From positions 1 to 64,000 of the forward strand of contig JAPKAV010000004.1 in NCBI GenBank assembly GCA_028825115.1: DNA of 64,000 nucleotides, in the 5' to 3' direction. The stretch is from Candidatus Nanopelagicales bacterium. GTDB taxonomy: Bacteria; Actinomycetota; Actinomycetes; S36-B12. A program made the position numbers and the translations under genes. Shown here piece after piece: positions 3 through 18,403 of this stretch (position 1 is its first letter; the number at the start of each line of letters is the position of its first letter). The notes below the pieces were generated by a model. It saw only the letters and a list, made by a program, of their open reading frames with translations, searched no databases and was not told where the DNA came from.

Positions 3-1139
3 ATTCTGCACGGGAAGGATCTGCTTCCCGTTGCCGGTGAATACACCCCCGCGGCAGTAACCAAAGGAATTACTGCTTTTCTGCGCAAACACTTGCCTGC
101 GTGCATCAACGAATCGCAATTGCCAACTGTTGTGCTCGAGAACGACGACCCGCGCAGCCCGTTTGCTCCACGCATTGATGCAGAACTAGTTCAAGGTAGA
201 CCGCCAGGGTTTTGTACCGGTTGCCCCGAGCGTCCAATTTTTGCGGCTCTTAAGTTAGCGGAGCGCGAAGTCGGCACACACATCGTCAGTGCGGATATCG
301 GCTGCCACCTGTTCTCTATCAATGCCCCTTTTAACCTTGGTGCAACCACAATGGGGTACGGCCTCGGCTCCGCCAGCGGAGCTGCATTTAATGCCAAAGA
401 TGCAGACAAGCGCACCATCGCCTTCATGGGTGACGGTGGCTTTTGGCACAACGGGCTCACGAGTGGAGTCGGAAACGCGGTGTTCAACGAAAATGATCAG
501 CTACTGGTTATTGTCGACAACGACTACAGTGCGGCAACCGGTGGCCAAGACCTTCTATCCTCTCATTCCACCAGTGCCTTACGCTCAACAAAACATCCTA
601 TTGAACGAGCGGTCCGCGGTATCGGCGTGAAGTGGTCGCGCACCATGACCAACACGTACCAAGTTGCTAAAATGCGGGACCTTTTTAAGGAAGCTCTCAC
701 CACCACACAAAAGGGCCCCAAAGTCATCGTCGCCCAAAGTGAATGCACTCTAAACCGTGAACGGCGAGAAAAACCAGCACGGGCCAAGAAGATCAAGGAA
801 GGTAAGCGGGTTATTCGTGAACGTTACGGGGTTGACCCAGAAACCTGCACTGGCGACCGTTCTTGCATTCGAATCTCCGGCTGTCCATCACTCACAATTG
901 GACCCAACCCCGACCCAATGCGTAATGACCCCATTGCAACAGTCCTGGATTCATGCGTGGGTTGTGGTCTTTGTGGGGAGAATGCACATGCGGCTGCCTT
1001 ATGCCCTTCGTTCTACAGCACCGAGGTGATCTATAACCCGAACCGGTGGGACAAGACAAAATTGGTATTTCGGAAAAAATATATTGGTCTTCTTCAGAGA
1101 AGTATTGAGAAACAACGCGTGGGAATCGACGCCGGATGA
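3..1139 (+). CDS. iorA: Indolepyruvate ferredoxin oxidoreductase alpha subunit-like (IorA), 5'-truncated by window edge
   Basis: Frame is open from base 3 through the listed TTG start at 93 (LHGKDLLPVAGEYTPAAVTKGITAFLRKH...). PPGFCTGCPERPIFAAL motif, TPP-binding region (GDGGFWHNGL...DND), C-terminal Cys-rich ferredoxin motif SCVGCGLCGE. Confidence 0.85.
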   Translation: MLHGKDLLPVAGEYTPAAVTKGITAFLRKHLPACINESQLPTVVLENDDPRSPFAPRIDAELVQGRPPGFCTGCPERPIFAALKLAEREVGTHIVSADIGCHLFSINAPFNLGATTMGYGLGSASGAAFNAKDADKRTIAFMGDGGFWHNGLTSGVGNAVFNENDQLLVIVDNDYSAATGGQDLLSSHSTSALRSTKHPIERAVRGIGVKWSRTMTNTYQVAKMRDLFKEALTTTQKGPKVIVAQSECTLNRERREKPARAKKIKEGKRVIRERYGVDPETCTGDRSCIRISGCPSLTIGPNPDPMRNDPIATVLDSCVGCGLCGENAHAAALCPSFYSTEVIYNPNRWDKTKLVFRKKYIGLLQRSIEKQRVGIDAG

Positions 1140-2743
1140 CAACTACCCAGGCGTCGAGACCAGCACCCACTGTCACCCGTCCGATCACCATGGCAATCTT
1201 GGCCATGGGTGGCGAAGGTGGCGGCGTCTTAGCGGATTGGGTCGTCAAAGTCGCCGAGATGAACGACTACTACGCACAGAACACCTCGGTTGCAGGCGTA
1301 GCTCAACGCACTGGGGCAACTGTTTACTATGTTGAAATACTCCCCAAGCCCAACGTGGGCGATCCCATCCAAGAACCAATTCTGAGCACCATGCCCACAC
1401 CTGGACAGGTTGATATTGTTGTGGCTTCGGAGTTGATGGAATCTGGCCGAGCAATTCAACGTGGTTTCTGCACGCCTGAGCGCACTACTCTGATTACGTC
1501 GACAAATCGCGTGTACTCCATGCCTGAGCGCACAGCAATGGGTGACGGTCGGATTGAGTCACAAGAGATTATTGACGCCGGCAAGGTTTCCTGCAAGAGG
1601 TTCATTCGGGCCGACTTCAATAAACTTGCACTCGACCACCGCAGTGTCATTAGTGCTTCACTTTTCGGTGCTATCGCTGCCGCTGAAGTAATTCCCTTTA
1701 CCCGGGAACAATGCGAGGAGGTTATTCGCACGGGGGGCAAGGGCATTGAAGCCAGCCTCGCGGCGTTCAATTCCGGGTTTGATGCTGCACTGGCTTCTGA
1801 ACGCCCTGTAGTTGAAATCACAATCGGTACCCGACCCCCTGAGGCGAAAGAAGACGGGCCAGACCCTGAGTTTGAGCGCGCGGCAATCGAGGACCCGATG
1901 TCTCTGGTTGGTCCAAAACTTCACCAGTGCGCGCAGCGGATTCTTAACGAATTTCCATCACAAGCACGCTACATGCTTGTTGAAGGAATTAGACGGTGCG
2001 CCGAGTATCAAGATGCGCGTTACGCCGAGCAGTATCTGGATCGAGTTGCCCGGGTGTGTGAAATTGACACCACCCCTGACCAAAAGCTCACTTTAGAGTG
2101 CGCTCGCTACACCGCCCTCTGGATGACCTATGAGGACACAATCCGGGTGGCATTCCATAAGACTCGAAAAGTGCGTTTCGACCGGGTCAAAGAAGAATCT
2201 CGCGCGACCGACTCAGAGATGATACAAATTCGCGAGTTCCTTCATCCGCAGGTAGAAGAAATCACCGATACTTTGCCCACTGTATTGGGTCGGTGGTTAT
2301 TGAACTCCAAGCCATTTCAATGGCTTGTCTACAAAATTACCAACCGAGGCATCAAGATTCAGACTTCTTCCGTGTGGGGGTTCACGGTTCTGTTTCTGCT
2401 AGCCAAACTTCGTCCTATTCGCCGCAGATCACTTCGTTTTGGTGTTGAGCAGGAGCGTATTGATTCCTGGCTCACGACAGTTGTGGGTCTTGCCGGATCA
2501 CCAGCAGGGGATCAAGAGCTGGCCTACCAGGTATGTTTGTGTCAACAATTAATCAAGGGATACGGTGCTACTCACGCAAACGGGCTCCGAAACTTCAATG
2601 GGATTATTGGCTACCTTCCCCAGGCCGCAAAATCAGCAGATCCTGCTAAGCGGATCCTCGAATTACGCGGGTCCGCTCTGTATGACGAAACCGGTGCGGC
2701 GTTGCGACAAGACTTGGAAAAACTCCCAGTCAATAATGTATAA
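1136..2743 (+). CDS. iorB: Indolepyruvate ferredoxin oxidoreductase beta subunit-like (IorB) with long C-terminal extension (DUF6537-like)
   Basis: MAILAMGGEGGGVLADWVVKVAE...TSVAGVAQRTGATVYYVEI is the 2-oxoacid oxidoreductase gamma/beta signature; ATGA overlap with iorA. Confidence 0.85.
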   Translation: MTTTQASRPAPTVTRPITMAILAMGGEGGGVLADWVVKVAEMNDYYAQNTSVAGVAQRTGATVYYVEILPKPNVGDPIQEPILSTMPTPGQVDIVVASELMESGRAIQRGFCTPERTTLITSTNRVYSMPERTAMGDGRIESQEIIDAGKVSCKRFIRADFNKLALDHRSVISASLFGAIAAAEVIPFTREQCEEVIRTGGKGIEASLAAFNSGFDAALASERPVVEITIGTRPPEAKEDGPDPEFERAAIEDPMSLVGPKLHQCAQRILNEFPSQARYMLVEGIRRCAEYQDARYAEQYLDRVARVCEIDTTPDQKLTLECARYTALWMTYEDTIRVAFHKTRKVRFDRVKEESRATDSEMIQIREFLHPQVEEITDTLPTVLGRWLLNSKPFQWLVYKITNRGIKIQTSSVWGFTVLFLLAKLRPIRRRSLRFGVEQERIDSWLTTVVGLAGSPAGDQELAYQVCLCQQLIKGYGATHANGLRNFNGIIGYLPQAAKSADPAKRILELRGSALYDETGAALRQDLEKLPVNNV

Positions 2744-2746
2744 AAA

Positions 2747-2776
2747 TCCCCGGCCACTTCGCGCAGGGGCCGGGGA
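2747..2776. terminator. Bidirectional terminator-like hairpin between convergent iorB and cyclase genes
   Basis: TCCCCGGCC / GGCCGGGGA perfect 9-bp arms with 12-nt loop, A-rich on the left side. Confidence 0.75.
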
Positions 2777-2803
2777 CAATTAAATGAGTGGGTGTGACTG
2801 CGG

Positions 2804-3574
2804 CTATTTGCTGACCAGTGCCAACACGCGGCACGGGCTTCCAGAGCCTTTAACAATCGGCAGCGGTGCAACTACGAGCACAGCACCAGTTGTTGGTAAC
2901 TTGTCAAGATTTCTCAATTGGGTCACGCCAACTTTATTGGCTCCCATAAACATGTTGTGGCATGGAAATGGTGGATCGAAAGTCATTGCGCCACCCGCGT
3001 CAGTGCCAACGGTCTCGACGCCCCAACCAAGAATCTTTGACTCGGCGAGGTACTTCGCTGCTGCAGGTGCCACACCTGGGGTGTGTGGCCCATTTTCATC
3101 GGCATTGGCAAATGCTTCGGGATCATCTCCGTAGCGAGACCAGCCTGTGCGAAACAGGACCCAGGAGTGCGGCGGAATTGAACCGTTCTCTGCTTCCCAA
3201 GCTTTCACATCTTCCAGGGTGAGGCAGTAGTCAGGATCTGCTTCAACTTCGGCGACTTTATCAATAATGACGGCTGGTCCCACAAGGCGTTGGACGGGGA
3301 TTTGGCTGACGTCGTCATTATCTTTCCCGGATACCCAGTGAATAGGTGCGTCGACGTGTGTGCCGGTGTGCTCACCGGAGTGGAAGTTGTTCCAGTACCA
3401 GAAAGGCCCACGCTCGTCGTAATGACTGATTTCTTCGAGTTCAAAGACTGCTGTCTGTCCGAATTCCGGTGGCAGCGCCAGTCTCGGAGTTTCTGAGTGC
3501 AGGGGTGAAGTCAAGTCGATGACTTGAACCGAACCATCGACAAGTCCAGCGGCCAATGTATTGAGGTCTGACAT
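2804..3574 (-). CDS. Cyclase family metal-dependent hydrolase, isatin hydrolase/kynurenine formamidase-like
   Basis: VIDLTSPLHSETPRLALPPEFGQ and GEHTGTHVDAPIHWVSGKD (HxGTHxDxPxHW metal motif of the cyclase family), ETVGTDAG. Confidence 0.8.
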   Translation of the reverse strand: MSDLNTLAAGLVDGSVQVIDLTSPLHSETPRLALPPEFGQTAVFELEEISHYDERGPFWYWNNFHSGEHTGTHVDAPIHWVSGKDNDDVSQIPVQRLVGPAVIIDKVAEVEADPDYCLTLEDVKAWEAENGSIPPHSWVLFRTGWSRYGDDPEAFANADENGPHTPGVAPAAAKYLAESKILGWGVETVGTDAGGAMTFDPPFPCHNMFMGANKVGVTQLRNLDKLPTTGAVLVVAPLPIVKGSGSPCRVLALVSK

Positions 3575-3618
3575 AGTTTTTATCCTTCCATTTTCGATGT
3601 GACCATATTGTGTCGGTT

Positions 3619-5976
3619 TTATTGGTTCGGCCGCCAGCGTTTCGGCCGATTGGTCAGTTTTTCTGGTGCCTGTAACTCCAGTCGAGGTTTCGGATCCTCA
3701 TTGCGTCCAGCAGGTGGCTTGCGACTACCCGCCTCGTATTGATTAGGCCACTTGACCCCGTAGTCCTGTTCAGCTGCCGCATGTAAGGTCCAGGCCGGGT
3801 CATAAAGATGTGGTCTCCCCAGTGCGCACAGATCTGCTCGACCGGCAGCGATAATTGTGTTGACGTCATCCCAACTGCTAATCGAGCCGACAGCCATTGT
3901 TGCTACTCCCGTTACGTTACGAATTCGATCAGCAAAGGGGGTCTGAAAGGAGCGCCCGTACGCAGGTCGTGCTTTCGGAGTGGTTTGGCCGGACGATACG
4001 TCGACAATATCAACTCCGTGTTCGGAAAACACCCGTGCAATCTCTACTGATTCCTCAACAGATAAGCCCTCGGGCACCCAGTCTGAAGCTGAGATTCGCA
4101 CGCTCATGGGTTTGGCTTGAGGCCACACGGCTCTGATCGCATCAAAAACTTCGAGTGGGAACCGCATCCGGTTTTCCAAGCTGCCACCGTATTCGTCGGT
4201 GCGGTTATTGCTCACCGGGGTGAGGAAACTCGACATGAGATACCCGTGTGCACAGTGATACTCCAAGAGGTCGAACCCCGCCTCGTCCGCATTCTTGGCG
4301 GAAACCACGAAGTCCGCGAGCACTGCATCCATATCCGACCGGGTCATTTCCCGCGGCACCTGGCTATTTGGGAGATATGGAATCGCAGATGCGCTCATGA
4401 TCTCCCAATTCCCGTCGTCCAGTGGTTGGTCAATGCCCTCCCACATCAATTTGGTTGAACCTTTCCGGCCAGAATGACCAAGTTGCAAACCAATTTTTGA
4501 TTCAGTGGTGTGCACAAAATCAACAATCTTCTTCCAAGCGTTAACCTGTTCGGTGTTCCAAATTCCACCGCAGCCCTGGGTAATCCGGCCCTGCTCTGAG
4601 ATGCACACCATTTCGGTCATGACCAATCCGGCTCCACCTAATGCGCGTGAACCCAGATGCACCATGTGGAAGTCGCCAGGTACCCCATCTACTGAGCAGT
4701 ACATGTCCATGGGTGAGACAACAACCCGATTGGGAAGTTCAAGCCCACGCATGCGAAACGGCAAGAACATGGGGGGCCGGGGAGTTGTTCCTTGCGGGAC
4801 ACGACCTTGTGAAATCTCGTTGCGTAATAGCCAGGAATCGACTTCGTGCACAAATGCTGGGTCTCGTTCTAGGAGGTTGTCGTAGGTGATTCGTCGACTA
4901 CGAGTCATCAGGTTGAATGCGAATTGGACCGGCTCCTGATTGGAGTATTGAGCCATTTCCTCAAACCACTCCATGCTGGCCTGTGCTGAGCGCTGCGTGC
5001 TCTTTACTACCGGTAAGCGCTCCTCGTCGTACGCTTTCAGTGCCGTTTCGATACTGGGCTGCTCCTGAATACACGCAGCTAAGCTCAATGCGTCTTCCAT
5101 TGCGAGCTTGGTTCCTGATCCGATGCTGAAGTGTGCAGTGTGTGCAGAGTCACCGAGAAGCGCCATATTTTCTTTGACGAGAGTTTTGTTTCGGATAGTG
5201 TGAAAAGTAACCCATTTACTGTTATTTACCACAAGTTTATGACCCGCAAGAACATCAGCAAATAGTTCTTCCACGCGTTGGACACTCTCCATGTCGCTGA
5301 CACCCGGAGGCAAAGATTCGGATTCAAATTTGTCGAAGCCAGCATTGTGCCACACGTCTTCATTCATTTCGATAATAAAAGTGCTTGATTTTTCGTCCAT
5401 GGGGTACGCGTGTACTTGCATTACTCCGTACTCGGTGTTGCGGATAAAGAACTCAAACGCTTCAAAAACTAAATCTGTTCCCAGCCACATGAATTTGCAT
5501 TTGCGCGGATCAACGGTGGTTCCGAAATCGGACTCAAATTCAGATCGAATAGCGCTGTTGATTCCATCGCTTGCGAGTACTAGATCGTAGTTCGCCATCA
5601 ATTCACTGACTGGAGGAGCTTCAGTGTTGAAGTGCACGGGAACACCGTGGTCCTTTGCGCGCCTCTGTAATACGTGTAGTAATTCCTTGCGACTCATTGC
5701 CGCAAAGCCATTCCCTCCGATGGCGAATTTGGATCCGTCGATATCAACGTCCACGTCACCCCAATAAGCAAATGATTTTCCCATGTCCTCGAAAACGGAT
5801 TGGTCTGATGCCTTGATGCCGCTCAGCGTTTGATCCGAAAAAACCACCCCAAAACCGAATGTGTCGTCCGGTGCGTTGCGTTCCCAGACTGTTATATCCG
5901 CCTGTGGATCGATTTGCTTGATCAACGATGAGAAGTACAACCCCCCGGGCCCCGCCCCAACTACTGCTATTTTCAC
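3619..5976 (-). CDS. Bifunctional FAD monooxygenase / Old Yellow Enzyme fusion (2-aminobenzoyl-CoA monooxygenase/reductase or salicylyl-CoA 5-hydroxylase/oxidoreductase type)
   Basis: N-terminal [17 protein letters not shown]-binding motif and [26 protein letters not shown]-terminal OYE half [20 protein letters not shown]...[12 protein letters not shown]...RPHLYDP. 785 aa. Confidence 0.87.
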
Positions 5977-6009: not shown

Positions 6010-6033
6010 ATAGTCTTGCGTGTTTTTGACTAT
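6010..6033. promoter_or_regulatory. Possible operator in divergent promoter region
   Basis: ATAGTC-N12-GACTAT inverted repeat between the divergent monooxygenase and SDR genes. Confidence 0.3.
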
Positions 6034-6109
6034 CGCCAATAGTACGATATATCTCACCGTGAGCAACCTTTTCACGAAAATCGCCGACAAACTAGGCAAG
6101 GATACCCCT

Positions 6110-6913
6110 ATGACTACACGATCCCCCTATGTATCCGAGCGATTCACCGACCGGGTGGCGGTGGTCACCGGAGGGGCGGGCGGACTAGGAATGGCGATCG
6201 CGCGGGCTTATAGCTCCGAAGGTGGCCGGGTCGCGATTTTTGATGCCAACCTTGATGCCGTATCGAGCGGGATCGCCTCTCTGCAGAAGGCTGGGGTCTC
6301 ACCCCACAGTCTCTTAGGCCTGCATGTTGATGTGAAAGATTCCAGCGCCGTGCACCAAGCGATGTCCCAAGTCGCCGAAAATTTCGGGCGGATTGATTCG
6401 TTGATCGCTGCGGCCGGCGGCAGCGTAGGAACACCCACGAAACTAGAAGAAATTACGCCAGAGGACCTCGACTTAGTTATCGACGTCAACATTAAAGGGA
6501 CTTATCACTGTAGTGCAGCCATCGTTCCTTTCCTTAAAGCACAGGGCGGTGGTTCGATTGTCACCTTTAGTTCGATTGGCGGCAGGAGCACCAGCCCGGT
6601 CACGGGAATTCCCTACGCAGCGGCCAAGGCCGGGATTCTCGGATTGACCCGCAGATTAGCCCGGGAAGTGGGACCGAACAATATCCGGGTTAATGCAATT
6701 GCACCGGGGTTATTCCTTACCGATCGACTTCAAGGAACATTTGACTCCATGAGTGAGCAGGACCGCAACGAAGTCCTCGATTCAATTCCACTGCACCGGA
6801 TGCCCGATCTGCGCGAATGTGTGGATCCAGTTCTCTTTCTCGCCAGTGACGCTGCTTCCTACATCACGGGAGTGGTTCTTGATATTAACGGCGGAAGATT
6901 TATGTCCGGCTGA
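6110..6913 (+). CDS. SDR family oxidoreductase
   Basis: VAVVTGGAGGLGMAIA, YAAAKAGILGLTR, GVVLDINGGRFMSG. ATG at 6110 gives the usual SDR N-terminus; the 6020 start looks too long. Confidence 0.88.
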   Translation: MTTRSPYVSERFTDRVAVVTGGAGGLGMAIARAYSSEGGRVAIFDANLDAVSSGIASLQKAGVSPHSLLGLHVDVKDSSAVHQAMSQVAENFGRIDSLIAAAGGSVGTPTKLEEITPEDLDLVIDVNIKGTYHCSAAIVPFLKAQGGGSIVTFSSIGGRSTSPVTGIPYAAAKAGILGLTRRLAREVGPNNIRVNAIAPGLFLTDRLQGTFDSMSEQDRNEVLDSIPLHRMPDLRECVDPVLFLASDAASYITGVVLDINGGRFMSG

Positions 6914-7946
6914 GAAACGGGACCCGAAATTCTTTTCCACCCGTTACACCCCTGGGTCTCCAAATCAAAATAACCACCAAAGCGGCCGCTATAACCAACC
7001 CTCGGACACCATTGGGCAGTGTGAATTCGATACTCCCGAGCGTGACTCCGCCTTCAAAGACGAGAAGTACTTGGCCAATTGCCGTCACCAGAATTGTTCC
7101 CACGACCGCCCCCCACACACTCGAAGCTCCGCCAATCACGAGCATCGCCAATGTCGTGAAAGTGAACCCTAGATAAAAATCCCGGGCGCTCACGGCACCG
7201 GCATGGTGGGCGTACATTGCACCGCTGAGCGCCGCGATTCCACCTGATGCGGTGAAGAAAAGTACCCGCAACCGCCAGATACTCGCACCTAAAGCGCGGG
7301 CTGCAAGTGCGTCTTCGCGCGTGGCACGCAACAATCTTCCTCGACGTGAAATGCCAATCAAGTACACAACAATCATGACCAAAACTGCAATCGCAATGGA
7401 TTCGTCAATAAAACCAAACTTGGGAACTTGGGGCATCACCTGCGGACCTGGGCCGATTAACTTCCAGTTGAACAATACGTTGTCTGCAACCATCAATACA
7501 GCGAAAGTTGCTATTCCCGCGGCCAAGCCACTGAGTCGCATCAAGAAAAGTCCAGTAATGAATGCGAGGAACGCCCCAATTGCAACTGCAATGACCAGGC
7601 TGGGGTAGATCCCCATATTGATCATCTTTAGTGGCTCCCAGAGTTCGTCCAACACGTTTTCTTTGATCCGTACGGGCACTGTGAGAAGTCCTGTGGCAAA
7701 TCCACCGACCATAGCGAAGGCAGCTTGTCCAAAAGACAAAACACCACTGTTACCGATGAGAACTTGAAGGGCTAGCACCATGACAAGAAGTGCCAGAGTT
7801 CCTTCAGTGAGAAAAGCAAATGATGCCGACACTGAACTCGCGGCGTAGGCAACAATCACCACGACGACAATCGGTCCGAGCAGTTGCTGCCACTGGAACC
7901 GGGTTACTCCCGGTAGTTGACTTGACGGCAGGAGATCGTTCGACAT
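6900..7946 (-). CDS. livM: Branched-chain amino acid-type ABC transporter permease (LivM family)
   Basis: Hydrophobic LivM-type protein (ALQVLIGNSGVLSFGQAAFAMVGGF...GASSVWGAVVGT); in a livKGFHM-like gene set. Confidence 0.88.
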   Translation of the reverse strand: MSNDLLPSSQLPGVTRFQWQQLLGPIVVVVIVAYAASSVSASFAFLTEGTLALLVMVLALQVLIGNSGVLSFGQAAFAMVGGFATGLLTVPVRIKENVLDELWEPLKMINMGIYPSLVIAVAIGAFLAFITGLFLMRLSGLAAGIATFAVLMVADNVLFNWKLIGPGPQVMPQVPKFGFIDESIAIAVLVMIVVYLIGISRRGRLLRATREDALAARALGASIWRLRVLFFTASGGIAALSGAMYAHHAGAVSARDFYLGFTFTTLAMLVIGGASSVWGAVVGTILVTAIGQVLLVFEGGVTLGSIEFTLPNGVRGLVIAAALVVILIWRPRGVTGGKEFRVPFLSRT

Positions 7947-8818
7947 TACACACGCTCCTTGACTGCTTTATTGGAAATTAAGCCGCCAGGCCTCACCAAT
8001 AAAACGATGATGACCAAAATGAAAAGCCAGGTATATGTGTAAATTCGGTAGTTACCCAAGAATGAGTTCAGCAGACTGATCGTCGTGCCCACAGCGAAGC
8101 CACCCAGTGCAGCTCCCTGCAGGCTTCCGAGCCCACCAATCACGGTCCCCACGAGGGCCAGGATCGTGATGTTCACACCAAATAGTGGGTCGACCGACCC
8201 ACGTTGGGTCACCAAGACGAATGCAACCGCCGCCGCAAGGACACCACTGAATACAAATGCAGCGCCAATTACTCGGTTCGAACGGACACCGAGTAGCCGA
8301 GCTGTCTGAAAATCACTTGACGCAGCTCGAATTTGCAGGCCGAGAGTTGTTTTCTCGATAAAGAACCACATTCCACCAAGGAGCACCAGGGCAAGACCGA
8401 TAGTCACCAAACTTCCGCGCGTGATCGTGGTGTCCCCAAACTCAATGACTCCGGTCATCCACGGAGCGATCTGTCCCGAGAGTGGAAGCGCACCGAAAAT
8501 GACTTCATAGAGGCGCTGAAGGAACACGCTTACTCCGAAGGAAGCAATGAGTAACACGGAGGGTTCGGCTACCCGTAATCTTTTGAAGACACTGAATTCC
8601 ATTAGGAGAGCGAGGATGGCGGTTCCGGTTACGGCGATACTGATACTTATGGGTAAGCCCAAATCAATAGTTACTATTAATAGGTAGGCCCCGATCGCGA
8701 TTAGCTCACCGTGTGCAAAGTTTACCAACCGCATGACACCAAAAACCAATCCAATTCCGAGTGCGGCTAATCCGTACAGTCCGCCGTAACTGAGTGCATC
8801 GAGGATTGTCTGAATCAT
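7946..8818 (-). CDS. livH: Branched-chain amino acid-type ABC transporter permease (LivH family)
   Basis: GLYGLAALGIGLVFGVMRLVNFAHGELIAIGAY, a typical LivH N-terminus. Confidence 0.9.
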   Translation of the reverse strand: MIQTILDALSYGGLYGLAALGIGLVFGVMRLVNFAHGELIAIGAYLLIVTIDLGLPISISIAVTGTAILALLMEFSVFKRLRVAEPSVLLIASFGVSVFLQRLYEVIFGALPLSGQIAPWMTGVIEFGDTTITRGSLVTIGLALVLLGGMWFFIEKTTLGLQIRAASSDFQTARLLGVRSNRVIGAAFVFSGVLAAAVAFVLVTQRGSVDPLFGVNITILALVGTVIGGLGSLQGAALGGFAVGTTISLLNSFLGNYRIYTYTWLFILVIIVLLVRPGGLISNKAVKERV

Positions 8819-9540
8819 TCGAGGTCCTCTCCGGTACCGAAATATGCTGCTGCAAGCCTTGCTTCATCTTGAGCGTCTTCGCGTAAAAGTGTTGCCCGCA
8901 CGTGACCCTCACGGATGACGAGTGTGCGAGCGGCAATACTCATGACTAGGTGGGCGCGTTGCTCGACCACAATAATTGCTGTCCCTTGGTCTTGAATTCG
9001 ATTTAGCACACCGAATACGTCTTGAATAACGGTCGGCGACAAGCCAAGACTCGGTTCATCTAGCATGAGGAGTTTTGGTTCGGAGACCAGTGCGCGGGCA
9101 ATGGCGAGTTGTTGTTGTTGGCCACCGCTGAGCAATCCTGCCTGATGGCTTCGATGGGTGGTAAGAACCGGAAACAAATCAATTACTTCCTCGATTGCCT
9201 TCTGGGCTCCAGATTTTTCTCGCCGACCGGTGAGCCCTAAACGAAGGTTTTCATTGACGGTAAGGTCCGTGAAAATCGCGCGCCCCTCGGGCACTAGGGC
9301 CAGCCCTAATCGAACAATGTCTTCTGGGTTCTTGCTGCGAATCGATTCGCCCCCGAATTCAATAGTTCCGTGGGATGCTTTCACAGCCCCCGCGATCGCA
9401 CCGAGGAACGTTGATTTGCCTGCACCATTGGGCCCAACGATTCCTACGAGCTCACCTGGTTCGACCTTAATGTGTCCATTGAAAAGAACTTGAACTTTGC
9501 CGTAGCCAGCCTGAAGGTCTTTAACATTAAGCAGGCTCAT
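8815..9540 (-). CDS. livF: ABC transporter ATP-binding protein (LivF family)
   Basis: GPNGAGKST Walker A, LSGGQQQQLAIARAL signature, LLMLDEPSLGL. Confidence 0.92.
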   Translation of the reverse strand: MSLLNVKDLQAGYGKVQVLFNGHIKVEPGELVGIVGPNGAGKSTFLGAIAGAVKASHGTIEFGGESIRSKNPEDIVRLGLALVPEGRAIFTDLTVNENLRLGLTGRREKSGAQKAIEEVIDLFPVLTTHRSHQAGLLSGGQQQQLAIARALVSEPKLLMLDEPSLGLSPTVIQDVFGVLNRIQDQGTAIIVVEQRAHLVMSIAARTLVIREGHVRATLLREDAQDEARLAAAYFGTGEDLE

Positions 9541-10283
9541 GCGCGGCCACCGTGCAAGCCCATGGTGGCGTCACCTAGGTAAGCGGTCAAGACTCCTTCG
9601 TCGATTAATGCGTCGTGCGGTGTTCCTTCAAAAAGCATTTCACCTGATGCTAGAACAAATACCCGGGTGCACGCATCAGCAACCAAGCCAACATTGTGTT
9701 CGATCAACAGCATCCCGCAACCAGATTCAACGCGAATACTTTCAAGAGCTGTGAGAAGGACGGGGGTTTCGTGGTCATTCAGCCCGGCGGCTGGCTCATC
9801 CATGATCAAGTAATCAGGGTCGGCTGTCAGTGCACGTGCCAGACCCACGAGGCGAGAAAGCCCGTGGGAGAGCCCGCCAGCAGGTTCACTCGTGACATCA
9901 CCCAATCCCAGTAATTCAATAGCGTCAAGTGCCCGGCGGTTCGCCTTTTTCGTAGATTCACCGACACCAATTCCCCCCAACACAATATTTTCGGCTACAG
10001 AGAGTTCGGGAAAGAGTCGGCCGGATTGAAAAGTGCGTGCTAAGCCTGCGTGTGTACGCGCTTCAGGTGTGAGTCCATCAAGGCTGCGGCTATCCATCGA
10101 AACTGTTCCCGAATTTTGTGATTCGTAGCCGGCAATAATATTGACCAGTGTGGTTTTACCAGCACCATTGGGACCAAGAAGTCCCACTATTTCACCCTTG
10201 TTTACGGTGACGCTTACGTCTTCGAGCACCCGGATTGCTCCAAAAGACTTGACGATCGACACAGCTTCAAGAATCTGTGTCAC
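9537..10283 (-). CDS. livG: ABC transporter ATP-binding protein (LivG family)
   Basis: GPNGAGKTTLVNIIAGYESQNSG, LIMDEPAAGLNDHE; ATGA overlap with livF. Confidence 0.92.
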   Translation of the reverse strand: MTQILEAVSIVKSFGAIRVLEDVSVTVNKGEIVGLLGPNGAGKTTLVNIIAGYESQNSGTVSMDSRSLDGLTPEARTHAGLARTFQSGRLFPELSVAENIVLGGIGVGESTKKANRRALDAIELLGLGDVTSEPAGGLSHGLSRLVGLARALTADPDYLIMDEPAAGLNDHETPVLLTALESIRVESGCGMLLIEHNVGLVADACTRVFVLASGEMLFEGTPHDALIDEGVLTAYLGDATMGLHGGRA

Positions 10284-10396: not shown

Positions 10397-11665
10397 CTAG
10401 TTGAGAATTGGCTGCTCTGCAGCGCGGTACTCAATGAATGAGTGGGCTCCGTCTTGCACCTGCATGACCGCCATCGGACGAGTCACGTTAACGTGCAATT
10501 CGGGTGAGAAGCTCGTTGGTCCAGCAGTCAGATCAACGTTGTCAAATGCTTCCAATGCTGCTGCCAGATCGGCACCATTAGTGGAACCGGCCTGCTCAGC
10601 TGCGAGTGCGAATGCTTCAATGCTTGAAGCTCCCGTGACTAGTCCACTGGTTGCCGCATCATTGCCAGTGAGACCCTTATAAGCCGCCAGCAGTTCGCTG
10701 ACCTTTGGATTGGGATCATCACCGAATACGGATGCATATGTCACGAAGTAGAAATCAGATAGATCCGGAACGGCTCCGAGCCAGAAAGCACCATCCATGC
10801 CGAAACCGGACACGACTGGTGTTTCAACGCCACCTGCGCGAAGTGCTGCTGCTGCTTCAGCGCCGCCACCAGGGTAGGAGCACAGTGCAACAACATCAGG
10901 ATTTGAATCCTTGATTTCTTTGACCTGCGCGGTCACAGGTGCTGCAAGTGAACCCTCAGGTGTTTGGCTAAATTCAGGTGCCGACACGATCTCGCCACCC
11001 AGTTGGGTCCAGCGCTCTTCAAATACTTTGCACTGGTTTTGGGTGTATTTGATTGACATGTCTTTAAATAGTGATGCCTTTGGACCAAATTCTTTAAACG
11101 CCCATTCGGCCATGATCGCTGCTTCACCTGGAACTGCTGAGCCGAGCGAAAAACCCAGTGTCAATCCAGCATCAGGTCCCATGATCGTGTCACCGACACA
11201 GGGAGCGATAACCAAGACGCCGGCGTCTTGAGCAACCTGGGAGGCTTTAGCGTTGATGTCGTAGTCGCACGTGACGAGCATTAGCTGTGCACCCTGATCA
11301 ATCAGATCCGTGGCGATTTGTGCCCCCTTGTCAGGGTCTGTTTCACCATCAACCTCAATGAGTTCTAGTTGGCAGCCAAGAACGCCGCCAGCAGCATTGG
11401 TTGCATCAATTGCAATGCGCGCAGTGTCGAGAGCCGGTACATCGAACGGTGACATGAAACCGGTTTGGGCCATGGCGGATCCGATCAAAATAGGCTCGGT
11501 GCATTCTTCAGCTACTTCTTCAGCCGCTTCTTCAGTTGCTGTTTCTGCGGCTGTTGTCTCTGCCGTGGTTTCCTCTGCAGAGTCTGTGGTTGAGGCGCAG
11601 CCAGCGAGCACAAGGCTCAGGCTTGCCGCGACCGCGAGAATTCCCGCGGCTCTTTTATTCTTCAT
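10397..11665 (-). CDS. livK: ABC transporter substrate-binding lipoprotein (LivK/Peripla_BP_6 type)
   Basis: Signal peptide with lipobox LVLAGCAS; IGSAMAQTGFMSPFDVPALDTARIAIDATNAAGGVLGCQLELIEVD. Confidence 0.9.
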   Translation of the reverse strand: MKNKRAAGILAVAASLSLVLAGCASTTDSAEETTAETTAAETATEEAAEEVAEECTEPILIGSAMAQTGFMSPFDVPALDTARIAIDATNAAGGVLGCQLELIEVDGETDPDKGAQIATDLIDQGAQLMLVTCDYDINAKASQVAQDAGVLVIAPCVGDTIMGPDAGLTLGFSLGSAVPGEAAIMAEWAFKEFGPKASLFKDMSIKYTQNQCKVFEERWTQLGGEIVSAPEFSQTPEGSLAAPVTAQVKEIKDSNPDVVALCSYPGGGAEAAAALRAGGVETPVVSGFGMDGAFWLGAVPDLSDFYFVTYASVFGDDPNPKVSELLAAYKGLTGNDAATSGLVTGASSIEAFALAAEQAGSTNGADLAAALEAFDNVDLTAGPTSFSPELHVNVTRPMAVMQVQDGAHSFIEYRAAEQPILN

Positions 11666-11793: not shown

Positions 11794-12210
11794 TCACGTT
11801 TTTGCCAGAAAAGACTTGACAGTTGACTCCGGCCAAGGCTGCGAACCGCCACTGGGATCGGGGGAATGAACGGCGGTGTGGCGACCTTCAATACAGACAC
11901 CTCCCTCCAGATTTTCCACCACAAATCCAAAAGACACCGAGGATCGACCCACCGCAATCACACCGACAGTGACATTTACTTCCTGGTTGAACCAGATCCG
12001 TTCGCGGTAATCAACCTCAACGTGCACCCGGGGAATTGAACCGGTCAATTCTGTGGGGAGCTCAATTAATCGTCGGAGTTCATGCTCTACTTCCTCTAAC
12101 CATCGGACGGCGACGGAGAAGTGGTTATGGCCGGCCGCATCCGTATCCGCCCATTCCAACCGTTTAAGCACCGTTATCGACGCCCCGATGATCTCCGTTT
12201 TGACAGACAT
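11794..12210 (-). CDS. Acyl-CoA thioesterase (4HBT/hotdog family)
   Basis: LEWADTDAAGHNHFSVAVRWLEEVEHELRRL...VHVEVDYRERIWFNQEVNVTV; ATG at 12210 gives a standard hotdog protein. Confidence 0.8.
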   Translation of the reverse strand: MSVKTEIIGASITVLKRLEWADTDAAGHNHFSVAVRWLEEVEHELRRLIELPTELTGSIPRVHVEVDYRERIWFNQEVNVTVGVIAVGRSSVSFGFVVENLEGGVCIEGRHTAVHSPDPSGGSQPWPESTVKSFLAKT

Positions 12211-12281
12211 GTCATGAGGGTACCAACAGGTGGCTACGTTCAGTAAGTGAAAAAACCCATACGACCAAGTCCGAATAATGC
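12178..12281. repeat. Left copy of imperfect direct repeat flanking the high-GC island
   Basis: Ungapped alignment to 20068-20171 at constant offset 7890; hand count 87/104 identical. Confidence 0.85.
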
Positions 12282-12461
12282 CACCGGTGAGACGCAGAGC
12301 CTTCAGCTCGATGTCGGGAAACGCCTTTTTCCACGCCCCAACGATCTGGCGCTGGTTGTCTCCACAACGCCGTCGCCGTGGTTGCTGCCGTAGGCCACGG
12401 CTGCTACTAGTGGCACCACGTAACTGAGAGCTGTCAGAAATCACTTCATTGCATACACCTC

Positions 12462-12533
12462 TGATCGTTGACCCACACCCAGATGACTGTGCATTTGATT
12501 TTCACTAATTGCCGAACCATGTGTCAACGATCA
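12462..12533. repeat. Inverted repeat at left island boundary
   Basis: TGATCGTTGAC (12462-12472) and GTCAACGATCA (12523-12533), perfect 11-bp arms. Confidence 0.6.
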
Positions 12534-12556
12534 CGGAGAATCAATTGCAAGAATTC

Positions 12557-13528
12557 TCAGGCGAACCGAAGCACGGTCTTGCCCAGACTCTTTCGCTCGA
12601 GCATCGCGCGCATGGCTGAGGCGATGTCTTCGACCGGGACGATCTGACGGACGTCGGGTCGGACCGCACCCGAGTCAACCAGCGGCATCAGTTCCTCCCA
12701 CTGCTGCCGGGCGAACCCTGGATGTGCGCGCGTCCACGGACCCCAAGCGACACCGGAGACGTCAATGTTCGCGAGCAGCAGGCGGTTTAGCCGGACGGAC
12801 GGAATCTCGCCAGCAACGTACCCCAACGAGAGTAACCGGCCACCTAGTGCCAGCGAGCGCAAAGACTCCAGCACGACCTGGTCGCTCCCGATCACGTCGA
12901 GGACCACGTCCGCACCGAGGCCGCCAGTGAGGTCGCGAACGCGCTCGGCGCTGGCGCCCTCGATAATCTTTTCGGCCCCCATCGCGGTCGCGTATGCGGC
13001 CTCCTCGGCCGAGGACACCATGCCGATCACCCTGCAGCCGAGCCCGGCGGCGATCTGCACGGCGGCGGACCCGACACCGCCGGCCGCGCCGTTGACGACG
13101 ACGACGGACCCCGGACGGACCCGCGCCCGCACGGCCAGAGCGAAATGAGCAGTGAGGTAGTTGAGGGGCATCGCGGCGCCCTGATCAAAGTTGAGCGACT
13201 GCGGGAGCGGGAAGACCCGCTCGGACGGCACGGCAACGACCTCGGCCGCACTTCCGTACGTCGACCAACCGGCCACCCGATCACCGGCAGCGAATCCGAG
13301 CGCTGGGGTGTCCTGGGAAACCACCCCGGCGAAGTCGACTCCAAGGACGAAGGGCACCTCGGGTTTGATCTGGTAGCGACCCTCGCTCATCAGCAGGTCG
13401 GGATAGGAGAGGCCGACACTGTGCACCTCGATCAGGACCTCGTCCTCGCCGGCCGCAGGAGCAGGACCGATCTCGCCGACCCGAACGCCGTCGGGCCCGT
13501 CCAGCGCGACGACCTGGGCAGCCCTCAT
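12557..13528 (-). CDS. NADPH:quinone oxidoreductase/zinc-binding alcohol dehydrogenase superfamily (MDR)
   Basis: MRAAQVVALDGPDGVRVGEIGPAPAAGEDEVLIEVHSVGLSYPDLL, VVVNGAAGGVGSAAVQIA. ATG at 13528 overlaps the upstream gene's stop. Confidence 0.87.
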   Translation of the reverse strand: MRAAQVVALDGPDGVRVGEIGPAPAAGEDEVLIEVHSVGLSYPDLLMSEGRYQIKPEVPFVLGVDFAGVVSQDTPALGFAAGDRVAGWSTYGSAAEVVAVPSERVFPLPQSLNFDQGAAMPLNYLTAHFALAVRARVRPGSVVVVNGAAGGVGSAAVQIAAGLGCRVIGMVSSAEEAAYATAMGAEKIIEGASAERVRDLTGGLGADVVLDVIGSDQVVLESLRSLALGGRLLSLGYVAGEIPSVRLNRLLLANIDVSGVAWGPWTRAHPGFARQQWEELMPLVDSGAVRPDVRQIVPVEDIASAMRAMLERKSLGKTVLRFA

Positions 13529-14622
13529 CGGACCCAGCCGCTGAGCACATCTGAGACCGTCACTGGACGGGCTCCGGGGGGCACCGGTGTGGTGGTGGCG
13601 GACCGGCTGAAGCGGGGTGCCGGCGCCGGTTGCGCTACCCCGTCGAGCTCGACGTAGGCGGACCGGCTGCGGGCATGCACATCCTGGAGGGCCTCGCTGA
13701 AGGTGAGGACCGGAGTCGCGCAAGCGTCGGACCCCTCGAAGATCTGAGCCCAGGCATCACGGGAACGGCCGGCGACAGCGGCGGTGATCCGTTCCCTGAT
13801 CCCCGGCCAGACTGCGCGGTCGTATTGGTCGCCGATTGTGTCGGGATCGATCTCGAGGTTGGCCAGCAGGATCGCGAAAAACTTCCGTTCGATCGCGCCG
13901 ATGGCCAGGTAGCGACCGTCCGAACAGGTGTAGGTGTCGTAAAAGGGCGCTCCTCCGTCCAGGAGGTTGCTTTGCCTCTCCTCCGACCAGGTTCCAGCAC
14001 CGCGCATCGCCCACATCTTCTGGGCGATGATGCCGATCCCGTCAACCATGGCGGTGTCGACGACCTGTCCGTGTCCGGATCGCTCCCGCTCCCAGAGCGC
14101 CGCCAGCAAGCCGGTCACCAGGACCATCGAGCCGCCGCCGTAGTCGCCCAGCAGGGTGAGCGGAACCGGTGGTGGTCGGTCGGCCTGGCCGAGCGCGTGC
14201 AGGACGCCTGTTGCCGCCAGGTAGTTCAAGTCGTGCCCGGCCGACATCGCCAACGGGCCCTCACGCCCCCAACCGGTCATCCGGCCGAGGACCAGCCGGG
14301 GGTTCAGCTCCTGCAATTCCTGCGGCCCCAGACCCATTCGTTCCAGGACGCCGGGTCGGAAGCCCTCGAGGAGGACGTCGGCGCTTCGGCAAAGCTCGCG
14401 CAGGTCCTGCAGTCCCGCCACGGACTTGAGATCGAGGGTCGTCGTGCGCCGGCCGCGCAGGACATGGTCGACAGAGCCGGCCAGTTCGGCCATAGGCGAA
14501 GCTCCTGGACGGTCGATCCGGACGACGTCGGCACCGAGGTCGGCTAGAACCATGGCGGAGTGTGGCACGGGTCCCAGCGCAGCCAGTTCCAAGACGCGGA
14601 GGTCGTTGAGCGGCCCGGTCAT
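13525..14622 (-). CDS. CaiB/BaiF (class III) CoA transferase / alpha-methylacyl-CoA racemase family
   Basis: LNDLRVLELAALGPVPHSAMVLADLGADVVRIDRP, RRTTTLDLKS, DVLLEGFRPGVLERMGLG. Confidence 0.9.
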   Translation of the reverse strand: MTGPLNDLRVLELAALGPVPHSAMVLADLGADVVRIDRPGASPMAELAGSVDHVLRGRRTTTLDLKSVAGLQDLRELCRSADVLLEGFRPGVLERMGLGPQELQELNPRLVLGRMTGWGREGPLAMSAGHDLNYLAATGVLHALGQADRPPPVPLTLLGDYGGGSMVLVTGLLAALWERERSGHGQVVDTAMVDGIGIIAQKMWAMRGAGTWSEERQSNLLDGGAPFYDTYTCSDGRYLAIGAIERKFFAILLANLEIDPDTIGDQYDRAVWPGIRERITAAVAGRSRDAWAQIFEGSDACATPVLTFSEALQDVHARSRSAYVELDGVAQPAPAPRFSRSATTTPVPPGARPVTVSDVLSGWVR

Positions 14623-15479
14623 CGGAGGCCTCCGAAGCAGGCCTGGGCTTGGAGGTGCGTCTGACCGGAAGGTCGGGCCACGTCGATCACGAAGCGGCGG
14701 GCGGCAGGGGCGGGCACCTCGTAAATGCGGTAAGTGAGAGCGTCGCCTGGCCAGGCCTGAGCTTTCCAGCGGCAGACCAGTCGGGTCAGGTGGGCCGTGT
14801 CGTCCAGGGTCGAGAGAAGGGTCCCGACGACGCCGGCAGTCAGCATCCCTACTGCAATAGGACCGGGGTAGCCGCCGGCCTCGGCGAAGGCTTGGTCGTG
14901 ATGGATCGGGTTGAAGTCTCCCGATGCCCCTTGGTACCGAACAAAGTCGGTGACGGTGAGCGGTTCGTCGGTCAACGCGAGGACCAGTTCATGGTCCTCC
15001 GGAGCGGACCAGGTCGGAACCGCTGCCGTCGGGGCAGTCCCGGGTGAACTCTGTTCGAGGAGGATCGAGGTTGCACGCAGACTCGCCACCACGTCACTTC
15101 CACCCAGGGGGACGAAGTCAGTGACGGTCTCTGTGAACTCCATCGTCCCGCGTCCACCGGGCTTTTTGTAGACCCGGTCGATGCGCTCAGTGCCGGTCAA
15201 CTCCGAACCGATTGCGGGCGGGCCGGCGGAAAAGGTGAACTCCTGCTCCCCGTGCAGCACCCGACGGTAGTCGCGATCGATTCCGTGCCAGGCGCTGTCC
15301 TCGGGCGCCAGCCAGAGCCGGGCTGAGGCTAGGAAGGTCACCGGCGAGCAGACCGGGTGAGGATGGTCCTTGGTCCAGGAGGTCGGGCGAGTCGCTCGGT
15401 GAAACTCTCGGCACTTGCCCGGCTCGACCGGCATCCGAAACGGTCGTCCGGTGCGACCGGCTAGGTCGCTCGTCGTCAT
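14619..15479 (-). CDS. MaoC-like double-hotdog enoyl-CoA hydratase (FAS1-like dehydratase N-domain plus MaoC C-domain)
   Basis: CREFHRATRP...SPVTFLASARLW N-domain; VTDFVRYQGASGDFNPIHHDQAFAEAGGYPGPIAVGMLTAG is the MaoC hydratase motif. Confidence 0.82.
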   Translation of the reverse strand: MTTSDLAGRTGRPFRMPVEPGKCREFHRATRPTSWTKDHPHPVCSPVTFLASARLWLAPEDSAWHGIDRDYRRVLHGEQEFTFSAGPPAIGSELTGTERIDRVYKKPGGRGTMEFTETVTDFVPLGGSDVVASLRATSILLEQSSPGTAPTAAVPTWSAPEDHELVLALTDEPLTVTDFVRYQGASGDFNPIHHDQAFAEAGGYPGPIAVGMLTAGVVGTLLSTLDDTAHLTRLVCRWKAQAWPGDALTYRIYEVPAPAARRFVIDVARPSGQTHLQAQACFGGLR

Positions 15480-15549
15480 GCTGCTCTCCGGCGACGGGGT
15501 GGTACATCCGGGCGCCCAGCTGGAAGACGGGCGCCCGGTTGGCTTGATA

Positions 15550-17061
15550 TCAGCGAAGCGGCCACTGGATGTGCTTCACCTGGAAGAACTCGCGGAACCC
15601 ATCCTCGCCCATCTCGCGGCCGAAGCCGCTGAGGCCGAAGCCGCCCCAGGGTCCCTCGGGCCTCATAAAGCCGCCGCCGTTGACGGTGACCGCTCCGGTC
15701 CGCAAGCGCAGAGCAAGCTGATGTGCCTCGGTGGGCTCGCCGAAGACGGCGGCGTGCAGTCCGTAAGGAGAGTCGTGGGCGATGGCGATCGCCTGCTCGA
15801 CGTCGTCGTAGGGGAGCAGCGTTCCAACCGGACCGAAGAGCTCCTCCTGACAGATGAGGTCGGAGTTGTTGACGTTGCCGATGATCGCCGGGTTCATGAA
15901 GTAACCCGGAAGCCCTTCAGGTCGTCCGCCGCCGGCGACGAGTGATCCGCCGCGCTCCAGGGCTCCGTTGAGGTGACCCTCCACAAAGTCGCGCTGCTCG
16001 GCCCGGATCAGCGGTCCGAGGTCGGTGTCTTCGGCCCATGGCGAACCCACCTTCATCTCGGCCATAAATCGGAACGCGGCGTCGGCGTACTCGTCGTACA
16101 TGGCGCGCGGCACCAGGGTCCGGCTCGTGGCGCCGCAGCCCTGCCCGGAGTTCCGGGCGAATCGGTAAATGCTGTTCGCTAGAATCTCGTCCACGTCTGA
16201 GCCCGGCAGAATGATCGAGGCAGACTTACCGCCCAGCTCGAGGACCAGGCGCTTGGTCGTATGGGCCGCGGCCTGCATGATGTGCCGGCCGACCGCCAGT
16301 GAACCGGTGAACATCACCATGTCGACGTTGGGGTGAGAGCTGAGGGTCTCACCCACGTCACCGTCTCCCATGACGAAGTTGACCACGCCCCGGGGGAGGT
16401 CCGCTTGCTCAACGAGCCGCATGAATGCCAAGGTCGCCAACGGCGTCCGCGGGGAAGGTTTGAAGACCAGAGAGCAGCCGGCAGCGAGACCCGGCCCGAG
16501 CTTCCAAGCGACCGAGTTGATCGGGAAGTTGTAGCCGGTGATCCCGGCAACCACCCCGACCGGGATTCGCTGCAGCAGCGAATTGCTGGCCGGTGGACCC
16601 AGGTGCGGCGGGAGGCCTTCTTGGTAACCGCCGTGGGGGCCCTTCAGAGCCATGTCAGCGGCCCATCGCAGGTTGCTGATCGGCATCCCGACCTGCATCG
16701 CCCGGGTGAGCCCGATGGGAGTGCCGACCTCGGTCACGATGATCTCGGCCAGCTCCTCGCGGTGCCGGTCCATAACGTCGGCGATCTGGAGGATCACTTC
16801 CGAGCGCTCCCGGGGAGTGGCGTCCTTCCACGGCCCTGAGTCGAAGGCCCGGCGAGCAGAGGCAACCGCGCGCTCGGCCTGGGAGGTCGTGGCGTTGGCG
16901 ACGGTCCGGATCTCCTCGGTGGTGCTCGGGTTGACGATGTTCAACCGAGTGTCGGCGTCACCGTCCTCCCATGTGCCGTTGATCCAGTTGGTCGGCCCGT
17001 CGATGAGGGCCTGGGCAGCGGGGCTCAGGGTGCGGGCGAGGTCGTTCGTGGTCATGGTCAT
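15550..17061 (-). CDS. Aldehyde dehydrogenase family protein
   Basis: NWINGTWEDGDADTRLNIVNPSTTEEI, FTGSLAVGRHIM, LELGGKSASIILPGSD, NSGQGCGATSRTLVP, EELFGPVGTLLPYDD. ATG at 17061 overlaps the upstream SDR stop. Confidence 0.92.
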   Translation of the reverse strand: MTMTTNDLARTLSPAAQALIDGPTNWINGTWEDGDADTRLNIVNPSTTEEIRTVANATTSQAERAVASARRAFDSGPWKDATPRERSEVILQIADVMDRHREELAEIIVTEVGTPIGLTRAMQVGMPISNLRWAADMALKGPHGGYQEGLPPHLGPPASNSLLQRIPVGVVAGITGYNFPINSVAWKLGPGLAAGCSLVFKPSPRTPLATLAFMRLVEQADLPRGVVNFVMGDGDVGETLSSHPNVDMVMFTGSLAVGRHIMQAAAHTTKRLVLELGGKSASIILPGSDVDEILANSIYRFARNSGQGCGATSRTLVPRAMYDEYADAAFRFMAEMKVGSPWAEDTDLGPLIRAEQRDFVEGHLNGALERGGSLVAGGGRPEGLPGYFMNPAIIGNVNNSDLICQEELFGPVGTLLPYDDVEQAIAIAHDSPYGLHAAVFGEPTEAHQLALRLRTGAVTVNGGGFMRPEGPWGGFGLSGFGREMGEDGFREFFQVKHIQWPLR

Positions 17062-17828: not shown

Positions 17829-17886
17829 ACTCTTACTCCTTCGGTTCTCCGTGTCGGGCGCTCTGCCCTGGGTGTGTTCGGTGTGG

Positions 17887-18114
17887 TCAGCGGACCTTGT
17901 AGCCGCCGTCGGCCACCAAGGTGTGCCCGGTGACGTAGGAAGAGTTCTCCGAGCAGAGCCAAGCGACGGCCTGGGCGATCTCGGCAGGCTTGCCGATCCG
18001 GGTGAGGACGCCACCGATCCGGTCGATGTACTCGGCATCGGGCTCGGTGCTGCCCTCCCGGCGGCGAGCAACAATCGGGGTGTCCATCACTCTCCTCTTT
18101 CCTTGGCCGTCCAT
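17887..18114 (-). pseudogene. 5'-truncated SDR remnant (C-terminal ~50 aa only)
   Basis: [43 protein letters not shown] is an SDR C-terminus with no Rossmann N-terminus. Confidence 0.7.
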
Positions 18115-18403
18115 GGAGGCGTCCCACGGTTGAGCCCACTCACAACTTCAGTCTTAGCGTGCCTTATCATTATCATCAATTGTCTCCGCCAAGTCAAGCC
18201 TTTGACAAGTCATCATCGATAACCCATTTCTCATGTCTGAGGATGCTCACCGTTACGCGGACATTCCTTCGTGAGTCACGGAGAGTGTGTTGCGGGCCGT
18301 TTTCGTGGGTCTCGTCGGTGGCTATTCCTAGCACTAATTTCGCGGCTACAGTAACCATGTAATCGCACACTAAAGCAACAGCCGGAACGAGGAGCGCCAA
18401 ACT

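Follow-up and report, generated by a model that had tools for sequence, protein, structure and literature searches.

A gene cluster of a freshwater-type actinobacterium that may lead isatin into coenzyme A-dependent ring degradation

The window analyzed here is the first 64 kb (positions 1 to 64,000) of contig C7 (JAPKAV010000004.1) from a metagenome-assembled genome (MAG) of a freshwater-type actinobacterium (2.18 Mb, 77.5% complete), and it starts at the contig end. Four genes that an initial annotation had placed there were confirmed (Table 1). These encode the two subunits of an IorAB-type 2-oxoacid:ferredoxin oxidoreductase (IorA and IorB), an isatin-hydrolase-type cyclase (IH), and a flavin adenine dinucleotide (FAD) monooxygenase fused to an old yellow enzyme (OYE) half, of the 2-aminobenzoyl-coenzyme A (CoA) monooxygenase/reductase type (ACMR). 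The cluster quite probably encodes an aerobic, CoA-dependent isatin route in which 2-aminobenzoyl-CoA made by IorAB would subsequently be dearomatized. This pathway is a variant built from known enzyme families and is new as a combination. The family assignments of the initial annotation held when compared with profile scores, matches in the PDB, and a phylogenetic tree.

In the proposed route, isatin hydrolase would open isatin, a product of indole breakdown, to isatinate (2-aminophenylglyoxylate), and IorAB, as part of an aryl-glyoxylate clade, would convert isatinate and CoA to 2-aminobenzoyl-CoA, CO2, and reduced ferredoxin by oxidative decarboxylation. This reaction would stand in for the steps that decarboxylase-type loci imply, namely decarboxylation of isatinate, oxidation of the aldehyde, and ATP-dependent ligation to CoA. 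The thioester would then be hydroxylated by ACMR and reduced by its intact OYE half to the non-aromatic 2-amino-5-oxocyclohexene-carboxyl-CoA, whose ring would be opened and shortened by a short-chain dehydrogenase/reductase (SDR), a RidA-type deaminase (found in relatives), a BadI-like hydrolase, and a thiolase. The genes, their families, their conserved linkage, the active-site motifs, and the phylogeny are observed, whereas we infer all substrates, the reaction order, and the isatin source.

Because the contig end cuts the gene, IorA in the window is a fragment. A near-identical strain variant of the cluster was found on contig C30 of the same MAG (nucleotide identity of 93% across ACMR, IH, and SDR and 84% across IorAB). 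It supplies the full IorA, two CrtO/CrtI-like FAD oxidoreductases, a BadI/MenB-like crotonase (the hydrolase above), and the thiolase. The set of IH, IorAB, and ACMR genes was found again in other genomes.

The cyclase and the thiamine diphosphate enzymes beside it

The nearest matches of the cyclase are isatin hydrolases, as the initial annotation had proposed, and a placement outside them, which would have refuted it, was not seen: the cyclase scored 270–274 bits against the PDB isatin hydrolases 5nnb, 5nna, 5nmp, and 4j0n, and the next cyclase reached only 106 bits. It is roughly 50% identical to LaIHA, LaIHB, and RsIHA (PMC6117287) and shares with them the metal motif HxG[T/A]HxDxPxH (HTGTHVDAPIH), the aromatic WXW/FXW pocket (PFWYWNN), and the catalytic Asp/His dyad (D192 and H206, invariant in the alignment); W80 is also kept. 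The published isatin-hydrolase signature GLQC/GLAS (PMC6117287), by contrast, reads GVTQ in the window cyclase. Among the actinobacterial homologues scanned it is mostly GLTQ, GVTQ, or GLTS. Given this signature, "isatin hydrolase" is used here as a working name and not as established membership, for an identification that sequence comparison makes well supported but not proven. It is unlikely that the substrate of the cyclase is some other cyclic amide or imide, which would give IorAB a different 2-oxo acid. The divergent signature would agree with such a substrate, as would the occurrence of these cyclases in many actinobacteria without ACMR, but isatin hydrolases are the closest enzymes by a wide margin, the pocket, metal ligands, and dyad are retained, and cyclase genes of this type occur alongside indole monooxygenase genes in Embleya, Azospirillum, and Nocardia arthritidis.

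An isatin-hydrolase alignment scan yielded 80 actinobacterial IH loci. The neighbor of IH was a thiamine diphosphate (ThDP) decarboxylase-like gene in 63 of these and IorAB in 11, and both occurred together in none. Four of the six remaining loci are on stretches that are short or truncated, and a fifth has IorAB on another contig of the same genome. In the 61 cases measured, the decarboxylase-like gene usually lies 3′ of IH, in the same orientation and no more than 60 nt away; in Nocardia, Terrabacter, and Novosphingobium, IorA holds this position immediately 3′ of IH (gaps of 16–181 nt). Genome-wide, IorA was present in 13/13 IorAB-type genomes versus 0/50 and 0/4 decarboxylase-type genomes, the decarboxylase was missing from 12 of the 13 IorAB-type genomes (the exception being a Pseudonocardia), and ACMR was present in all 13 versus 21/50 of the others; neither the locus nor the genome counts are independent, because related genomes share descent. 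The decarboxylase-like partner scored 158 bits against benzoylformate decarboxylase and matched no indolepyruvate decarboxylase model at E ≤ 1e-40. The simplest reading would be that two differently organized ThDP enzymes act on one 2-oxo acid, the IH product, and the decarboxylase-like gene beside IH is a candidate isatinate decarboxylase. As a two-gene unit, IH and this gene are common in actinobacteria (63 loci, L018–L087), often without ACMR, and the unit is also carried by Deinococcus psychrotolerans (L112).

IorAB and the proposed supply of the CoA thioester

The full IorA on C30 (725 aa, L003:10280-12457) is 90% identical to the window fragment and carries a ThDP motif (GDG...VDN) at 490 and cysteine motifs at 629 and 665. 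This ThDP domain, the ferredoxin-like cysteines, and a POR gamma-type beta subunit are those of an IorAB-type 2-oxoacid:ferredoxin oxidoreductase. Against TIGR03336, the alpha subunit model of indolepyruvate:ferredoxin oxidoreductase (IOR), the protein scored 275 bits, below the cut-off of 651 for IOR membership. No relative of solved structure was found for IorA at E ≤ 1e-5.

A sister IorAB is encoded on a Variovorax boronicumulans plasmid with a LIV-type transporter and mandelate genes: a racemase that scored 463 bits against the mandelate racemase of known structure, and an oxidase resembling (S)-mandelate dehydrogenase (302 bits). In another Variovorax, IorAB is accompanied by an oxidase 63% identical to this one. 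These sister enzymes would belong to a route from mandelate via phenylglyoxylate to benzoyl-CoA. Phenylglyoxylate is isatinate without the amino group, and the position of the sister IorAB among mandelate genes therefore suggests an aryl-glyoxylate as the 2-oxo acid. The same chemistry (aryl-glyoxylate and CoA to aroyl-CoA and CO2) is that of phenylglyoxylate:acceptor oxidoreductases and mandelate pathways. The likeness is at the level of chemistry; the anaerobic phenylglyoxylate enzyme has five subunits, and the window IorAB has two, with DUF6537, and a 2-amino substrate is expected for it. Among 72,556 plasmid records searched, IH was also present in 40 of the 50 that carry window-type IorA. 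Six of the ten without IH (Variovorax, Hydrogenophaga, and an uncultured bacterium) scored identically and appear to be copies of a single mobile fragment; in the one record opened, it is flanked by IS1071 transposase genes.

Published iad loci convert indole-3-acetate to anthranilate by way of isatin and then isatinate, with iadA/iadB (IorA/IorB) as markers of these isatin-type loci and not of iac loci, which bypass isatin (PMC9613470). No role for iadA/iadB is stated in PMC9613470, PMC11630574, or PMC12633357, and a literature search, with subscription papers mostly outside it, found no paper tying IorAB to isatinate. In Variovorax, iadC-K2 without iadAB was sufficient for anthranilate formation, and C8H7NO3 and C7H7NO built up strongly only in strains overexpressing the whole iadC-K2 region (2025 preprint, PMC12633357), a build-up that would fit a missing isatinate consumer. 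Like the window, the iad loci of Variovorax, Bradyrhizobium, and Achromobacter (PMC9613470, PMC11630574, PMC12633357) combine IorA/IorB with an isatin-hydrolase-type cyclase. Dioxindole, isatin, and isatinate were detected in the iad systems, whose published end product is anthranilate. No IadCDE-type Rieske oxygenase was found in the MAG, where FAD oxidoreductases of another family occur instead. An iad locus is recognized by IorA/IorB, the IadCDE Rieske enzyme, and iadFGHI together; IorAB and IH are present here, but no IadD homologue was found at E ≤ 1e-20 in the 77.5%-complete MAG. The window cluster is predicted to work like the isatin half of iad and is not filed as an iad locus. Azospirillum thermophilum carries iorAB, iadCDEF, an iadJ-like SDR, and ACMR in one run.

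There is little likelihood that IorAB is instead a true IOR acting upstream, from indolepyruvate to indoleacetyl-CoA, with isatinate reaching anthranilate by other means. The library family names of IorAB are those of IOR, and the Variovorax result shows anthranilate forming without iadAB, but the IorA score lies far below the IOR cut-off, IorA or a decarboxylase-like gene occupies the place directly 3′ of IH, the sister clade is tied to mandelate genes, iadAB mark isatin-type loci, and the decarboxylase-like partner matches benzoylformate decarboxylase but no indolepyruvate decarboxylase model at E ≤ 1e-40. The action of IorAB on isatinate, which the initial annotation had derived from substrate class, thus gains comparative support from its mutual exclusion with the decarboxylase beside IH, from the mandelate-linked sister, from ligase counts, and from the membership of IorAB in isatin-route auxin loci.

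For these counts, a homologue of anthranilate-CoA ligase was found near ACMR in 5/14 IorA-positive loci versus 44/51 other loci (Fisher p = 4e-4, kinship not corrected), where the 51 comparison loci are those not known from IorA genomes, with IorA absence confirmed by search for part of them. In Caballeronia SBC1, the order is IorA-IorB-thioesterase-ACMR-cupin-FAH-C-N hydrolase-racemase-MarR-IH, with no ligase. Nocardia paucivorans carries every gene of the set but not the ligase, which N. arthritidis retains; across its genome the closest ligase homologue reaches about 33% identity, and the species appears to have no anthranilate-CoA ligase. A ligase-like gene was nonetheless present somewhere in 10/13 IorAB-type genomes, so IorAB need not be the sole source of the thioester. 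For the same reason, a missing ligase was weakened as proof of direct thioester formation, and the earlier statement that the route runs without free anthranilate goes beyond the evidence. The ligase homologues of three genomes (G001–G003) lie in another conserved locus. In freshwater-type relatives (L093, L096, and L097), a conserved locus apart from the cluster holds the ligase homologue and also encodes an amino-acid permease, an acyl-CoA-dehydrogenase-like protein, a P450, a glutamine-synthetase-like ligase, and a class-I glutamine amidotransferase, and it resembles gamma-glutamylated amine catabolism.

The fused monooxygenase and the fate of the ring

The window ACMR is 60% identical over its full length to a protein of Arthrobacter Rue61a plasmid pAL1, whose gene adjoins an anthranilate-CoA ligase gene of tested activity (PMC3534580). 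It combines the FAD monooxygenase with an OYE half whose motif is intact (H574-x-x-H577-G-Y579, HCAHGY), as in ACMR-type enzymes. In the tree, fused enzymes of anthranilate-CoA clusters, including the window ACMR, were separated with 100/100 support from stand-alone hydroxylases, an outgroup called salicylyl-CoA by gene context only, with no characterized salicylyl-CoA sequence in it; the Azoarcus sequence stood outside the tree. The grouping of the fused enzyme with salicylyl-CoA enzymes that would have spoken against the initial annotation was thus not seen. The stand-alone proteins have no OYE half, and their clusters contain a gentisate-dioxygenase-like cupin and a ligase (and FAH in 3/4).

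A set of a large cupin, a C-N hydrolase, FAH, and a racemase-family protein was found in five loci (L094, L111, L127, L132, and L133), and this set adjoins IorAB, ACMR, and IH in the near relative G002 and in Caballeronia. The cupin set would cleave 5-hydroxyanthranilate to pyruvate and maleamate, followed by maleate and fumarate. None of the five retains an intact OYE motif (HFAHGF, QAGHGY, HAGHGH twice, and QYGHGH). When all enzymes were included, the set accompanied 5/22 altered versus 0/67 intact motifs (p = 6e-4). The motif was altered in 5/5 cupin-set enzymes versus 0/60 other fused enzymes of the clade, which keep HxxHGY (p = 1e-7), a figure that is post hoc because a deep-branching group (mostly 41–47% identical) was excluded after the first test. 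That group of Actinomycetota proteins (L173–L192) has variable OYE motifs (DLAHGY, DMGQGY, NMAQGY, and others) and often lies beside enoyl-CoA hydratase and acyl-CoA dehydrogenase genes.

The 2-aminobenzoyl-CoA route could be correct while ACMR only hydroxylates its substrate to 5-hydroxyanthraniloyl-CoA, with a thioesterase and a cupin dioxygenase cleaving the aromatic ring. The cupin sets of G002 and Caballeronia and the 4HBT thioesterase in the window are in line with this, but it is improbable for the window, where the OYE motif altered in every cupin-set locus is intact, no gentisate-dioxygenase-like cupin was found in the MAG, and C30 carries the BadI-like hydrolase and thiolase. Dearomatization is the better guess for the window ACMR because HCAHGY is kept, because of these two C30 genes, and because RidA-type deaminases recur next to fused ACMR in relatives. 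It is very improbable that the fused protein is a salicylyl-CoA 5-hydroxylase in a gentisate pathway unconnected with isatin, since the NF006101 equivalog name, although scored above its cut-off, also covers the Rue61a protein, gentisate-cluster hydroxylases form the separate clade, RidA deaminases recur beside fused members, and the MAG search found no such cupin. That NCBIfam name (salicylyl-CoA 5-hydroxylase/oxidoreductase) was dropped as a functional guide for spanning the Arthrobacter anthranilate enzymes as well.

Compared with the 2-aminobenzoyl-CoA pathway of Azoarcus evansii and Arthrobacter Rue61a pAL1 (PMC3534580), the preferred isatin route shares the fused enzyme and, in relatives, RidA. 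Its thioester would be expected to come from IorAB, either in place of an AMP-forming ligase or in addition to one, and the C30 variant carries the BadI-like hydrolase and the thiolase where that pathway has cupin and FAH. More broadly, and with somewhat less assurance, we favor a view in which the DUF6537-type IorAB clade consists of aryl-glyoxylate:ferredoxin oxidoreductases, its isatinate users perform the iadA/iadB step that gives 2-aminobenzoyl-CoA and saves the ATP of a ligase, and OYE decay switches dearomatization to aromatic-ring cleavage.

Upstream, indole monooxygenase, flavin reductase, SDR, and FAD oxidoreductase genes are found together with IH and IorAB in Embleya and Nocardia arthritidis, and with IH in Azospirillum. 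Given this grouping, isatin may be the product of the FAD oxidoreductases that are conserved across the window lineage. The indole or indole-acetate source named in the initial annotation exceeds the evidence, since the 77.5%-complete MAG yielded no indole monooxygenase and no homologue of the IadD-type Rieske enzyme at E ≤ 1e-20.

Several points weigh against the isatin route as a whole. Besides the cyclase signature, the shared descent behind the counts, and the ligase homologues kept by most IorAB-type genomes, the BadI-like protein scored 299 bits against TIGR03210 (cut-off 468) and was below the cut-offs of MenB models as well, and both its gene and the thiolase lie on the C30 variant and not in the window. 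At this genome completeness, the failure to find a ligase, an indole monooxygenase, or a Rieske oxygenase in the MAG carries little weight.

Gene neighborhood of the cluster

Table 1 Genes of the cluster in the window
Feature	Position	Strand	Evidence
IorA (2-oxoacid:ferredoxin oxidoreductase alpha), C-terminal 378 aa	3..1139	+	PF02775; TIGR03336 141 bits (cut-off 651); ThDP domain, ferredoxin-like 4Fe-4S cysteines
IorB with C-terminal DUF6537	1136..2743	+	NF006179 628 bits (cut-off 348); PF01558, PF20169
Isatin-hydrolase-like cyclase	2804..3574	-	PF04199 141 bits; PDB isatin hydrolases 270-274 bits; carries HTGTHVDAPIHW
Fused FAD monooxygenase-OYE, ACMR type, 785 aa	3619..5976	-	NF006101 1175 bits (cut-off 1078)
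SDR dehydrogenase, divergent from ACMR	6020..6913	+	53-66% identical SDR adjoins ACMR in L041, L098, L102, L105, L107
LIV-type ABC transporter: two permeases, two ATPases	6900..10283	-	Open reading frames; same set beside IH/IorAB in L011, L094, L103, L106
LIV-type substrate-binding protein	10397..11665	-	PF13458; identity 83% L011, 65% L103, 44% L048/L106, 42% L094
4HBT-type thioesterase	11794..12444	-	PF13279; clusters with thioesterases of L015, L017, L048, L094

The IorB start codon and the IorA stop codon share a 4-nt overlap (ATGA), and the fused monooxygenase gene lies 44 nt ahead of the cyclase gene. The SDR probably serves the lower pathway. Uptake of the aromatic substrate is a probable role for the LIV-type system, for whose substrate-binding protein the only PDB match was a generic LIV-type protein. 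Thioesterases of the 4HBT type recur in IorAB loci, and in Caballeronia, Sagittula, and Shinella a thioesterase gene is located directly 3′ of IorB. In three relatives (L092, L098, and L107), genes for an AMP-ligase, an ADP-forming acyl-CoA ligase-like protein, and a methylmalonyl-CoA-mutase-family protein lie near ACMR, the BadI-like gene, and the thiolase, and their products possibly serve the last steps of the ring carbons.

On C30, two extra genes missing from the window sit between IH and IorB (L003:4495-8665) and encode a NodU-like carbamoyltransferase and a 424-aa protein without an NCBIfam match. The identity between C30 and the window falls from 93% to 84% precisely at these genes (window 2747-2753), as if IorAB had been exchanged there by recombination. 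Further along the window (12400-20000), GC content climbs from 52% to about 65% across genes for a zinc alcohol dehydrogenase, CoA-transferase III, MaoC, an aldehyde dehydrogenase, an SDR, and an AMP-ligase, most of which have no close counterparts in related loci. The region may be either a foreign island or a chimera of assembly or binning, and 12-20 kb was excluded from the cluster analysis on account of its foreign composition.

If the isatin route is correct, a function would be given to iadA/iadB, the markers of plant-associated auxin degradation, and indole-derived carbon would reach a CoA pathway with no need for a separate ligation. The OYE motif would likewise be a sequence marker predicting dearomatization versus aromatic-ring cleavage in 2-aminobenzoyl-CoA pathways.

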